A stretch of 64,000 bases of DNA from Sphingopyxis panaciterrae (GTDB lineage Bacteria > Pseudomonadota > Alphaproteobacteria > Sphingomonadales > Sphingomonadaceae), in contig NZ_JAASQN010000001.1 of the NCBI RefSeq assembly GCF_011762125.1, positions 806,001 through 870,000 on the forward strand, read 5' to 3'. This document shows positions 18,990-56,990 of the stretch, piece by piece (position 1 is the stretch's first letter; each line of letters begins with the position of its first letter). The translations under genes were made by a program, and so were the position numbers. The notes under the pieces are model-generated. The model searched no databases, was not told the DNA's origin, and saw only the letters and a program-made list of their open reading frames with translations.

Positions 18990-19001
18990 TTAGAATACTA
19001 A
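18990..19001. promoter_or_regulatory. MarR-type operator, site 1 (leuC)
   Basis: TTAGAATACTAA, one mismatch from the palindrome TTAGTATACTAA, with an AAGT extension on the right. It ends 22 bases before the leuC start. It is the first of eight related sites listed in this window. Confidence 0.72.
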
Positions 19002-19023
19002 GTAATTTCGGGCAAGGGACGAT

Positions 19024-20448
19024 ATGCGGGGCAAGGCGGCGGCGCGCACGCTCTACGACAAGATATGGGACGCGCATGTCGTCGCCGAGGATGAGGGCGA
19101 GACATTGCTCTACATCGACCTGCACCTGCTCCACGAAGTGACGTCGCCGCAGGCGTTTGCGGGACTCGCCGAGGCGGGCCGGGCGGTGCGCCGTCCCGAG
19201 CGGGTGCTGGCGCTGTCCGACCATAATGTGCCGACCGAGGGGCAGGCGGCGGGGCCGGCGGGGGTCGCCGACGACGAGGCGCGGGCGCAGCTCGAAGCGC
19301 TCGTCGCCAACACCGCGCGCGCGGGAATCGAGAATTTTCCGATGGGTGATCCGCGCGGCGGCATCGTTCATGTCGTCGGCCCCGAACAGGGGCGGTCGCA
19401 GCCGGGGATGACGATCGTCTGCGGCGACAGCCACACCTCGACCCACGGTGCGTTCGGCGCGCTCGCGTTCGGGATCGGGACGAGCGAGGTCGAGCATGTG
19501 CTGGCGACGCAGACGATCCGCCAGCGCCGCTCGCGCAACATGCGCGTAACCGTCGACGGGGCACTGGCGCCGCATGTCCATGCCAAGGATCTGGCGCTGC
19601 ACCTGCTCGGCGCGATCGGGGTCGATGGGGCGGCGGGGCATGTCATCGAATATGCGGGCGCAGCGGTGCGTGCGCTGTCGATGGAGGGGCGGATGACGCT
19701 GTGCAACCTCAGCATCGAAATGGGTGCGCGCGCAGGGCTGGTCGCACCCGACACGGTGACCCTTGCCTATCTCGCAGGGCGGCCCGCGGCGCCGAAGGAC
19801 GCGGCGTGGGACGCGGCGATGGCGCGCTGGCGGACGCTGGCGAGCGACGCGGGGGCGGTGTTCGATCGCGAGGTGCGGATCGATGCGCGCGATGTGCGGC
19901 CGATGGTGAGCTGGGGCACGAACCCGGCGCAGGTCGTCGCGGTCGACGGCCATGTCCCCGATGCGGCGGCGCTGGACGGCGTTGAAGCGCGCGCGGCGGC
20001 GACACGCGCGCTCGCCTATATGGACCTTGCTCCCGGCGCGCCGATCGCCGGAACGCGGCTCGATCGCGTCTTCATCGGAAGCTGCACCAACAGCCGGATC
20101 GAGGATTTGCGGGTCGTCGCCGAGATCGTTCGCGGCCGCCGTGTCGCGCCGCATGTCCGCGCGCTGGTCGTGCCGGGATCGGGGCTGGTCAAGCGGCAGG
20201 CCGAGGCCGAGGGGATCGACCTTGTGCTGCGCGCGGCGGGGTTCGACTGGCGCGAGCCCGGCTGTTCGATGTGCGTCGGGATGAACGCCGACCGGTTGCT
20301 GCCCGGCGAGCGCTGCGCCGCGACGTCGAACCGCAATTTCGAAAATCGCCAGGGGCGCGGCGGGCGGACGCATCTGATGAGCCCGGCGCTGGCGGCGGCC
20401 AGCGCAATCGCGGGGGCGATTGCGGCGCCAGAAACGCTGGCGAATTAG
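19024..20448 (+). CDS. leuC: 3-isopropylmalate dehydratase large subunit (LeuC family)
   Basis: A 474-residue aconitase-family subunit, close in length and pattern to E. coli LeuC. The three 4Fe-4S cysteines are visible in VFIGSCTNSRIED and PGCSMCVGMN, and MTIVCGDSHTSTHGAFGAL is intact. The usual reaction is isomerisation of 2- to 3-isopropylmalate with LeuD. It is oddly placed: leuD faces it on the opposite strand, no leuB is nearby, and both halves carry the same MarR-type operator. A paralogue acting on another 2-alkylmalate in catabolism is therefore possible; the biosynthetic enzyme is the conservative call. Confidence 0.9.
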   Translation: MRGKAAARTLYDKIWDAHVVAEDEGETLLYIDLHLLHEVTSPQAFAGLAEAGRAVRRPERVLALSDHNVPTEGQAAGPAGVADDEARAQLEALVANTARAGIENFPMGDPRGGIVHVVGPEQGRSQPGMTIVCGDSHTSTHGAFGALAFGIGTSEVEHVLATQTIRQRRSRNMRVTVDGALAPHVHAKDLALHLLGAIGVDGAAGHVIEYAGAAVRALSMEGRMTLCNLSIEMGARAGLVAPDTVTLAYLAGRPAAPKDAAWDAAMARWRTLASDAGAVFDREVRIDARDVRPMVSWGTNPAQVVAVDGHVPDAAALDGVEARAAATRALAYMDLAPGAPIAGTRLDRVFIGSCTNSRIEDLRVVAEIVRGRRVAPHVRALVVPGSGLVKRQAEAEGIDLVLRAAGFDWREPGCSMCVGMNADRLLPGERCAATSNRNFENRQGRGGRTHLMSPALAAASAIAGAIAAPETLAN

Positions 20449-20470
20449 AGCATGATGATTTTACTCCGCC

Positions 20471-20555
20471 TCGTCATTGCGAGGAGCGAAGCGACGCGGC
20501 AATCCAGAGCATGCGTAAACCGCTCTGGATTGCTTCGCTCCGCTCGCAATGACGA
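20471..20555. repeat. 85-bp inverted repeat between leuC and leuD, second copy at 50155
   Basis: TCGTCATTGCGAG at the left end pairs with CTCGCAATGACGA at the right, and internal CGGCAATCCAGAG pairs imperfectly with CTCTGGATTGC. A nearly identical 85-bp copy lies at 50155-50239. It sits between two convergent genes, where it could fold in either transcript and serve as a bidirectional terminator. The dispersed copies suggest a REP/MITE-like element. Confidence 0.8.
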
Positions 20556-20563
20556 GATGGGGA

Positions 20564-54988: not shown

Positions 54989-55032
54989 AATGTCTCAAAT
55001 CCACCCCGATGCCGTCGTTCGCCGCTTCCGCT

Positions 55033-55737
55033 TCACCGCTGCGCGTGCTGGCGATCGCCCCACAGGATCGCGCGATGTTCGTCGGTGAAGCCGGTGAGCC
55101 CGCCCTCGATCGTTTCGGCGCGCGCGGTGCCGGCCTTCATGCCTTCGGCGACCGCTGGGCGAGCGAGCATTGCGGCGCCCCAGCGCTCGACGTTCGGAAA
55201 GCGCCCCGCCTTGTCGATGAACTGGCGGCGCAGATAGGGCAGGGTCGCCATATCGGCGATGCTATAATCGTCGCCCGCCAGCCACTCGGCTTCGCCCAGC
55301 CGATGGTCGAGGACCATCATCAGCCGGTCAACCTCGCGGCCGTATCGGGTGATCGCATAGTCGTGCCGATCCTTGGCATAATGGGTAAAATGCGCCTCCT
55401 GCCCGAACATCGGACCGACCCCCGAGACCTGGAACATCAGCCATTGCCAGCAGATCGCGCGCTTCACCGGGTCGCTCGGCAGGAAACGCCCGGTCTTTTC
55501 GGCGAGGTAGAGTAGGATCGCGCCGGTTTCCCACAGGACGAAGCCGGGACCGTGCGGGCCTTCGTCATCGACGATTACGGGCGTCTTGTTGTTCGGGTTG
55601 AGCGCGAGAAATTCGGGGGTGAGTTGATCGCCCGCGAGGATGTCGACGGGTTCGAGCCGCCATGCGAGTTCCATTTCGAGCAGCGCGATCGCGATCTTGC
55701 GCGCGTTGGGGGTCGGGCCGCCATAGAGGGTGATCAT
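55033..55737 (-). CDS. Nu-class (YfcG/Ure2-like) glutathione transferase
   Basis: A 234-residue GST with GGPTPNARKIAIALLE, NPNNKTPVIVDDEG and WETGAILLYLAEKTG. It diverges from the other two in the active-site strand (TPNAR instead of TPNGH/Q). ATG 55737 overlaps the stop of the CoA-transferase gene as ATGA, so the two act in one operon under operator site 8; a coupled CoA/glutathione step is plausible. Confidence 0.86.
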   Translation of the reverse strand: MITLYGGPTPNARKIAIALLEMELAWRLEPVDILAGDQLTPEFLALNPNNKTPVIVDDEGPHGPGFVLWETGAILLYLAEKTGRFLPSDPVKRAICWQWLMFQVSGVGPMFGQEAHFTHYAKDRHDYAITRYGREVDRLMMVLDHRLGEAEWLAGDDYSIADMATLPYLRRQFIDKAGRFPNVERWGAAMLARPAVAEGMKAGTARAETIEGGLTGFTDEHRAILWGDRQHAQR

Positions 55738-56900
55738 GCGGATTTTCCTTCGTGGCCGAGCCAGCGATGGAGGACATCGGCGCTGTCCTGCCCGACGGTC
55801 AGCGGGGCGGGGCGGCGGATGCTGCCCGGCGTTGCCGACAGCTTGGGGAACACACCCTGCATCCTGATCTCGCCGAACTCGTCGTCCGCGACCGTCACCA
55901 ATGCCTCGCGCGCCGCGAAATGCGGGTCGGCCAGCATATCCTCGGCATCGAAGACGCGGCCCGCGGGAACGCCCGCCGCGACCATCTTCGCTTCCAGTTC
56001 GGCGATCGTCATCGTCGCGGTCCATTCGCCGATCAGCGCGTCGAGCTCCTCCTGCCGCACGCCGCGCGCGCGATGCGTCGCATAGCGCTCGTCGCTCGCC
56101 AGTTCGGGCCGGCCCATTGCCGCGGCGAGCCGCGCGAAGACGCCGTCCTGATTGGCGCCGATCAGATATTCGCCGTCGCGGCACGGATAGACGTTCGACG
56201 GCGCGATCGCGGGGAGGGTCGATCCGGTGCGGCGGCGCTTGGTGCCGCTCGCCGAATAATCCGACACGGTCGATTCCATCACCTGCAGCACCGCCTCGTA
56301 AAGCGCCGAATCGACAATCTGGCCTTCGCCGGTCTTGCTGCGGTGATGGAGCGCGGCGAGCGCGCCCATGCAGCCATAGGTCGCGGCGAGGGTGTCGCCG
56401 ATCGACACGCCCATGCGTGCCGGCGGCAGGTCGGGATAGCCGACGATGCCGCGCCAGCCGCCCATCGCCTCGCCGATGCCGCCAAAACCCGCGCGCGCTG
56501 AATAAGGGCCGGTCTGGCCATAACCCGACACGCGGACGACGATCAGCCCGGGGTTGCTCTTGCGCAGCTCGATGGGGTCGAGGTTCCATTTTTCGAGCGT
56601 GCCGGGACGGAAATTCTCGATCAATATGTCGGCCTTTGCGATCAGCTCGCGCGCCAGCGCCTGACCCTCTTCGCCGCGCAGGTCGACCGCGACCGAATAT
56701 TTGTTGCGCGCGATGACGCGCCACCAGCTTGGGCGGTCGCCCTGGCCCCAATTGCGCATCTGGTCGCCGGTGCCGGGCGGTTCGAGCTTGACGATCTCTG
56801 CCCCCATGTCGCCGAGCAGCTGGCCGCAGAAGGGGCCAGCGATGAGCTGCCCCATCTCGACCACCCTGATGCCGTCCAGCGCTCCCCCGTTTTTCGTCAT
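55734..56900 (-). CDS. CaiB/BaiF-family (class III) CoA-transferase
   Basis: A 388-residue CoA-transferase: GIRVVEMGQLIAGPFCGQLL at the N-terminus, the cofactor segment LVNxx-type NKYSVAVDLRG, and the catalytic aspartate in MGVSIGDTLAATYG. ATG 56900 has AAGGAA upstream; another in-frame ATG lies at 56921. Family members move CoA between carboxylates or, like alpha-methylacyl-CoA racemase, epimerise CoA esters. It is divergent from the HMG-CoA lyase-like gene. Confidence 0.88.
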   Translation of the reverse strand: MTKNGGALDGIRVVEMGQLIAGPFCGQLLGDMGAEIVKLEPPGTGDQMRNWGQGDRPSWWRVIARNKYSVAVDLRGEEGQALARELIAKADILIENFRPGTLEKWNLDPIELRKSNPGLIVVRVSGYGQTGPYSARAGFGGIGEAMGGWRGIVGYPDLPPARMGVSIGDTLAATYGCMGALAALHHRSKTGEGQIVDSALYEAVLQVMESTVSDYSASGTKRRRTGSTLPAIAPSNVYPCRDGEYLIGANQDGVFARLAAAMGRPELASDERYATHRARGVRQEELDALIGEWTATMTIAELEAKMVAAGVPAGRVFDAEDMLADPHFAAREALVTVADDEFGEIRMQGVFPKLSATPGSIRRPAPLTVGQDSADVLHRWLGHEGKSA

Positions 56901-56978
56901 TCCGTTCCTTTCGGCGCCCAAGCCGGTCTATGAAGCATGTCGGCGGCTTTTGGCATCACTCTTGTGGTCATCATATAC

Positions 56979-56990
56979 TTAGAATGCTAT
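56979..56990. promoter_or_regulatory. MarR-type operator, site 8 (CoA-transferase/HMG-CoA-lyase-like)
   Basis: TTAGAATGCTAT preceded by AC and followed by GTAAT, as at sites 1 and 2. It lies between the divergent CoA-transferase and lyase genes. Confidence 0.65.

Follow-up and report, generated by a model that had tools for sequence, protein, structure and literature searches.

Eight palindromes and a second dyad in Sphingopyxis panaciterrae as predicted operators of two MarR proteins in a putative catabolic regulon

The described systems nearest in kind to the one reported here are CouR of Rhodococcus jostii RHA1, DesR of Sphingobium SYK-6 and the MarR proteins of the Variovorax auxin locus. 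CouR is a MarR-family repressor linked to p-coumaroyl-CoA (CoA, coenzyme A). Its inverted-repeat boxes stand at four promoters, all belonging to one catabolic regulon and one of them its own divergent promoter, and the sections of the paper available to us describe neither a second MarR nor a second operator (PMC4737184). DesR, a MarR repressor from a sphingomonad, has 15-bp inverted repeats at its own promoter and at several others, and the portion of the source used here presents it as one regulator with three named target promoters (PMC6888825). In Variovorax, two MarR genes, IadR and IadR2 (MarR_73 and MarR_50), lie in one catabolic locus with one of them as the main repressor, and loss of the second also speeds degradation (PMC9613470). 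Here we analyze a 64,000-nucleotide stretch of the 4.84-Mb genome of Sphingopyxis panaciterrae (the window; contig C1, positions 806001–870000), in which eight copies of a palindrome are spread over 38 kb that also hold two MarR genes, marR1 (21361..21867, + strand) and marR2 (33350..33784, – strand). We propose that the eight palindromes (type A) are operators of a MarR-type repressor, MarR1, and that a second palindrome (type B) at three promoters is the operator of MarR2, a reading to which we give a probability of about 0.7 from comparison of sequences.

As with CouR and DesR, one predicted repressor would serve inverted repeats at several promoters, its own included, and as in Variovorax the locus holds two MarR genes. 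The operators themselves differ, since neither type A nor type B matches the CouR box ATTGA-N5-TCAAT (PMC4737184) or the DesR repeat GTTTGTGTCACATAC (PMC6888825). A predicted site makes the role of the second MarR testable, whereas the available excerpts on Variovorax report neither a DNA site nor a ligand found for its second MarR (PMC9613470). PheR, described as IclR-type in the part of its source used here (PMC13273656), belongs to another regulator family and was set aside. Both proteins encoded in the window carry the MarR winged-helix domain (Pfam MarR PF01047, 3.3e-15, for MarR1 and MarR_2 PF12802, 1.1e-10, for MarR2). MarR operators are palindromes, often found at the regulator's own promoter as well, with a size given as 16–20 bp (PMC10458429), and here a 20-bp dyad lies both at leuD/marR1 and at marR2/CoA ligase 1. 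In our view this is a new, well-supported regulon of a type already known, and its layout with double operators is unusual.

The eight sites start at 18990, 21186, 32745, 33890, 41915, 49313, 53419 and 56979, exactly where an earlier note on this DNA had placed them, and all eight are intergenic by open reading frame (ORF) calls, upstream of or between genes as it had also stated. The note counted seven copies of the 12-mer TTAGTATACTAA with zero to two mismatches and one degenerate copy. The actual number is six (18990, 21186, 32745, 33890, 41915 and 53419), with three mismatches at 56979 and five at 49313, which reads TTAGGTATTTAA. At up to three mismatches the window holds nine matches to the 12-mer versus 0.75 expected from shuffles; 21291 and 51979 among these nine are not sites of the earlier note, and 49313 is not one of the nine. 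Across the whole genome the 12-mer with up to two mismatches occurs at 13 places versus 37 for the reversed word, with no overall enrichment. Six of these 13 places, and all four with at most one mismatch, fall within the 38 kb. Genome-wide hits at chance frequency, named in the note as an outcome that would speak against a regulon, are thus seen for the loose 12-mer, but not for its clustering here or for the 20-bp motif.

That longer motif was obtained from 62 loci of named genomes fetched by MarR1 (21361–21867) alone, the motif not being used. They contain 175 sites with up to two mismatches versus nine for the reversed word; at least one site is present in 51 loci and none in 11. A matrix built from the 159 distinct sites of loci L014–L063, with the window excluded (30.6 bits), has the 20-bp consensus WTASTTAGWATWCTAASTAW, the symmetry of which was imposed by construction. 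The eight top scores in the window belong to exactly the eight sites. Six of them reach 30.7–35.7 bits, followed by 53419 (15.5 bits) and 49313 (12.4 bits), and the ninth-best place has 7.9 bits. The best score in the reversed window is 15.3 bits, and 60 dinucleotide shuffles of the window gave a best score of 15.9 bits and three matches of at least 12 bits in total. Because the shuffles reach 15.9 bits, 53419 and 49313 are not outstanding by score alone; their support lies in conservation at the corresponding promoters of the eight relatives examined. Five of the six high-scoring sites are not independent of the matrix, as their orthologous promoters are in the training set. Independent support comes from 56979, which scores 32.0 bits at a promoter absent from that set. 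The stretches of the eight relatives (G201–G204, G207, G209, G211 and G217) were chosen for a perfect core at the TonB2/DUF3237 promoter, so that the count of eight out of eight for the 53419 core is biased by the choice; the sites at MFS/SDR3 and CoA-transferase/HMG-CoA lyase were not used in it.

The first site (18990..19001, 35.7 bits) lies at the promoter of a leuC paralogue (19024..20448, +) and recurs in four of the five leuC-holding stretches of relatives (L109, L111, L114 and L123, with 38, 19, 30 and 36 bits; none in L115). The site at 21186..21197 (31.1 bits) is located between a leuD paralogue (20564..21181, –, an ORF with an uncertain start codon) and marR1, the one at 32745..32756 (33.6 bits, no mismatch) at the promoter of an FMN reductase gene (32778..33353, +), and the one at 33890..33901 (30.7 bits) between marR2 and the operon of acyl-CoA ligase 1 (33917..35572, +). 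Each of these three is found in all five of the stretches L109, L111, L114, L115 and L123. Between a gene with a MetE-like methyltransferase domain (40824..41876, –) and acyl-CoA ligase 2 (41964..43529, +), the site at 41915..41926 (35.2 bits) has an identity of 0.99, compared to 0.67–0.73 in its flanks. The degenerate site at 49313..49324, weak alone, separates the MFS operon, part of a series of glyoxalase, GST1, SGL lactonase-like, CMD, SnoaL, SDR2 and MFS genes (43821..49269, –), from SDR3 (49390..50145, +, with an approximate start taken from the domain match), and in all eight relatives an A-like site of 10–17 bits and a B-like site lie side by side at this promoter in matching geometry. 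The site at 53419..53430, without mismatch, lies between the genes for GST2 and TonB receptor 2 (50246..53348, –) and those for DUF3237 and GST3 (53438..54707, +), and its TTAGTATACTAA core is kept in all eight relatives, whose stretches were preselected for such a core. The last site (56979..56990), between CoA-transferase III (55734..56921, –) and an HMG-CoA-lyase-like gene (57010..57942, +), scores 32 bits in eight of eight relatives. Site-anchored alignments give identities of 0.79–0.99 in the sites versus 0.47–0.73 in the flanks.

Among the genes that the note had linked to these sites, SDR1 (31604–32578) is not an evident target, as it is followed rather than preceded by site 32745. It was left out of the target list together with mreB, adenosine deaminase and the other genes at 22.1–32.6 kb. 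About 10.8 kb (21900–32700) separate marR1 from the FMN-reductase promoter here, holding by our reading a BlaI/BlaR-like pair, and also TonB receptor 1, MreB, adenosine deaminase, a phosphoribosyltransferase, a TetR gene and SDR1. In most Sphingopyxis loci fetched by MarR1, the FMN-reductase site is found ~540 bp past the marR1 start.

The presence of type A sites follows that of MarR1. Among 80 genomes of the genus, in which MarR1 was scored at E values up to 1e-50, the 62 with MarR1 hold 237 sites with at most one mismatch (mean 3.8; at least two sites in 58 of the 62), versus three sites in the 18 genomes that lack it (mean 0.17; two or more sites in none). The reversed control gives 1.94 and 1.56 per genome, respectively. 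This genus test alone cannot separate MarR1 from MarR2, because MarR2 is present in nearly the same genomes. Type A sites also occur with MarR1 in genomes for which the search for MarR2 homologues found none. One of these is G074 (completeness 100), where MarR1 has 67–68% identity and A sites of 31.2, 30.7 and 21.6 bits are present; the 13-kb stretch holds no B site, and MarR2 gave no homologue in the genome at 1e-8. G277 (L045) and G279 (L052) have MarR1 with an A site within 540 bp, of 29 bits (two mismatches) and 24 bits, and no MarR2 homologue at 1e-15. Type A is present in five of seven MarR1-orthologue loci and type B in none of them. Two of the seven, L080 and L085, are independent, and each carries A; the other five are the window itself and four loci that overlap with the training set. 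The 23 other MarR loci contain an A site of at least 20 bits in one case and a B site in none. The earlier note had suggested a MarR protein as the binder, which this co-occurrence supports. It had also offered both MarR genes as candidates for a single dyad, and this part is not supported: A sites accompany MarR1 in G074, G277 and G279, and the MarR2 family goes with type B. MarR2 as the principal reader of A sites was rejected because of the A sites in genomes without a detected MarR2 homologue.

Alignment of the TonB2/DUF3237 promoter revealed GTCAATCTGATTGAC beside its A site. The pattern GTCAA-N5-TTGAC occurs exactly at 45087 and 53402, with a near-match at 49333. The first of these, GTCAATTAAGTTGAC (45087..45101, 34.7 bits), lies before GST1–glyoxalase and is found in eight of eight relatives, as is GTCAATCTGATTGAC (53402..53416, 33.6 bits) beside the 53419 site. 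The type B-like palindrome GTCAACGTGCTTTAC (49333..49347, 16.6 bits) stands beside the 49313 site and scores 17–19 bits at the same place in all eight relatives. In the whole genome GTCAAYNNNRTTGAC has just two matches, 45087 and 53402. Sixty shuffles of the window gave 25 matches of at least 12 bits to the B matrix with a best score of 21.2, and because of this best score 45087 and 53402 stand out and 49333 does not by score. When the full widths of the matrices are counted, the A and B sites at MFS/SDR3 directly adjoin each other (starts 49313 and 49333), and those at TonB2/DUF3237 (starts 53402 and 53419) share 6 bp.

The candidate regulator of the type B sites is MarR2, on the evidence of family co-occurrence. 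Its PDB matches are weak, with 3vb2 (an E. coli-type MarR chain) first at 6.9e-6, followed by 5cyv at 1.7e-5 and 3fm5 at 1.8e-5, the latter two of which we take to be CouR. We scored 17 stretches around MarR2-family genes (34–48% identity), none of which was used in training the B matrix. Type B reaches at least 17 bits in 12 of the 17 and at least 20 bits in eight; type A reaches 20 bits in none, with two A matches of 17–18 bits, and the same stretches reversed give no B match of 11 bits or more. In five further MarR2-family stretches, some of them used in training, B is present in two (L128 and L138). A B-like palindrome (14–20 bits) lies ~80–130 bp ahead of the MarR2-family gene itself in L127, L128, L147, L149 and L151. 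A MarR2-family gene lies near a TonB-receptor gene, mostly with B palindromes, in L139, L140, L143–L149, L151 and L155. This combination recurs in several sphingomonads and suggests a MarR2/TonB module.

A number of observations weigh against this assignment of proteins to sites. In the genus, gains and losses of MarR1, of MarR2 and of the cluster nearly always coincide. Two genus members with MarR1 and without MarR2, G200 and G247, have zero and one site with at most one mismatch. Their coordinates identify them as the genomes of L045 and L042, in which no other cluster genes were found beside marR1, and G275 (L042), with MarR1 and without MarR2, has no site within 10 kb. No A site of 12 bits is present in the MarR1-orthologue loci L082 and L084 (two of seven; the same loci as L060 and L062), in the MarR1 loci L042, L059, L060 and L062, or in the gammaproteobacterial L068, and the one A match in the other MarR loci (22 bits) is in L104, a locus of low similarity. 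An extended A pattern has eight matches in the whole genome versus four for its reversed control. In the window, the marR2 promoter carries type A but not type B. Five of the 17 MarR2-family stretches are without B at 17 bits, and two of these B-less stretches, L141 and L142, are near copies. L061, with MarR2 at 67% identity, has no B site of 17 bits, the TonB2/DUF3237 promoter included. The A and B score cut-offs were set after the scores had been seen.

Some of these points would fit an alternative in which A is read by a single MarR (MarR1, MarR2 or a heterodimer of them) and B is the site of a different, unnamed regulator or of a LysR- or IclR-type activator: the two MarR proteins are nearly always both present in the genus, marR2 itself has A without B, and B is missing in the five stretches and, at 17 bits, in L061. 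We consider this alternative unlikely, as A sites are found where no MarR2 homologue was detected (G074, G277 and G279), and B is present around MarR2-family genes in 12 of 17 stretches versus none of 30 other MarR loci. A different possibility concerns the sign of regulation, with both MarR proteins as activators, or one repressor and one activator, at the same sites. Activation by some MarR proteins is stated in the part of the CouR paper used here (PMC4737184). The site starts lie 27–54 bp ahead of the gene-match start in eight of 12 gene groups (24.5 to 163 bp in the rest), distances to gene matches and not to mapped promoters, which suits promoter blocking and makes activation improbable in our estimate. 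That the dyad is a dispersed repeat, or a promoter element in which TATACT serves as the –10 box, is hardly credible, for although the core includes the TATACT word and lies near gene starts, the two-fold dyad extends up to 20 bp in single sites (for example taacTTAGTATTCTAAgtaa), is placed between divergent genes, is nearly absent without MarR1 (three sites in 18 genomes), and keeps its arms while its centre varies (TATA, AATA, ATTA, AATG).

With MarR1 as the predicted reader of type A and MarR2 of type B, a MarR1 dimer would bind the 20-bp dyad a short distance ahead of the genes it controls, covering or adjoining the core promoter, and would block transcription of leuC, leuD, its own gene, FMN reductase, marR2, the two CoA-ligase operons, the MetE-like gene, TonB2/DUF3237, MFS/SDR3 and CoA-transferase/HMG-CoA lyase. 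MarR2, the gene for which has the type A site 33890 at its promoter and is itself a predicted MarR1 target, would bind GTCAA-N5-TTGAC at GST1–glyoxalase, MFS/SDR3 and TonB2/DUF3237. A compound of the pathway would release the repressors; a CoA thioester is plausible as this ligand because two CoA-ligase genes are among the targets. The abutting and overlapping A and B sites would give the transport promoters a feed-forward layout. This leads to the more specific proposal of a two-tier circuit with two operator codes, for which we would offer slightly less than even odds. MarR1 would run the regulon through TTAGnATnCTAA and also set the level of MarR2, MarR2 would read GTCAA-N5-TTGAC, and the two would meet only at the promoters of outer- and inner-membrane transport, as a feed-forward gate on uptake. 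If this is true, it would govern a pathway that has enolase, LeuCD, MetE-like and APH-kinase genes of its own and is absent from the literature we found; our search of open-licence papers for the 12-mer or the gene set returned no paper on this motif or cluster, the 12-mer leading only to two unrelated papers.

The sites behave as parts of a scattered regulon, as the earlier note had proposed, in that the same sites are present at the same promoters in relatives and are kept where the genes are unlinked. The half of the cluster with TonB2/DUF3237/MFS/CoA-transferase is found on a different contig, or at a distance of more than 200 kb, in G201, G202 and G209, where its sites are kept. In Phenylobacterium (L065–L067, L127, L128 and L137), where the gene order is different, A sites of 17–31 bits precede MetE/marR1, glyoxalase, TonB2, DUF3237 and CoA ligase 1. 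Five of the eight genomic places of the extended A pattern are in the cluster. The best one outside it, C1:312743 (L161 8746; 27.5 bits), adds to the independent support from 56979. It is unlinked to the window and lies between a TonB/DUF3237 pair and an MFS gene, all similar to their counterparts in the cluster (29%, 33% and 32% identity, respectively). C1:562652 (22.8 bits) precedes an acyl-CoA-dehydrogenase-like gene, with a TonB gene, a MarR1 paralogue (49–51%) and a MarR gene of weak similarity to MarR2 nearby, and at C5:58137 (19.4 bits) no comparable gene context was seen. Other places in this genome that have two mismatches to the 12-mer and lie outside the window were discarded as chance matches, with scores below 4 bits (L009, L010 and L012) or of 10.0 and 7.6 bits (L011 and L013). 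Without its substrate having to be known, the predicted operators outline which genes probably belong to a catabolic pathway widespread in Sphingopyxis and partly kept in Phenylobacterium. The A and B motifs also offer a route to further members, of which the unlinked locus at C1:312743, with its TonB, DUF3237 and MFS genes, is an example.

The gene set reads as a dedicated pathway for an acid activated to its CoA thioester. Downstream of acyl-CoA ligase 1 lie genes for an alpha/beta hydrolase-like protein (35652..36782, +; a weak S33 match), an APH-type kinase (36783..37766, +), a second enolase (37766..39061, +; 45% identical to the other enolase of the genome) and a 2-hydroxyacid dehydrogenase (38752..39978, +; an ORF, the true start of which is probably later). 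The leuC paralogue has two other leuC counterparts elsewhere in the genome, at 59% and 54% identity. SHRSGE is an enolase motif; the second enolase, which adjoins the APH kinase and the hydroxyacid dehydrogenase in a catabolic operon, has SARSGE at this position and keeps other catalytic-looking motifs. In the leuC operon of L016 (5062–7805, by Pfam), an A site comes first, then an APH kinase with DUF6285 and an acyl-CoA dehydrogenase, ahead of leuC, and similar ORF N-termini suggest the same two genes between the A site and leuC in L021 and L029. This pair is associated with 4-hydroxyacid breakdown, and tblastn of the two gave no match in the window.

The iad locus carries the Rieske-type dioxygenase iadDE, according to the part of the source used here (PMC12633357). 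No Rieske domain was found among the ORFs scanned with Pfam at 14.5–62.4 kb, where not every ORF was scanned. One of the loci, L020, lies in the genome of Sphingopyxis Root154, a strain that degrades auxin (PMC11630574). With no Rieske gene found here, and with iad-like genes given as not induced in Root154 in the available part of that paper (PMC11630574), auxin degradation was dropped as a candidate pathway. Among 171 plasmid records there is no relative of MarR1 at 60% identity or more. The best four plasmid relatives of the MetE-like protein are 55–57% identical, and the three examined gave no clue to the substrate, two lying in unlike clusters and one being unannotated.

Elsewhere, a candidate A site of 21.3 bits (L005, or L121 10229; C1:360229) lies ~100 bp before a ROS/MUCR regulator gene. 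An asymmetric variant like atacTTCGnnnnCTAAgtat (14–20 bits) is found in the outgroup loci L061, L065, L126 and L137, before hydrolase, CoA ligase 1 or HMG-CoA-lyase-like genes, and may be a diverged A site.

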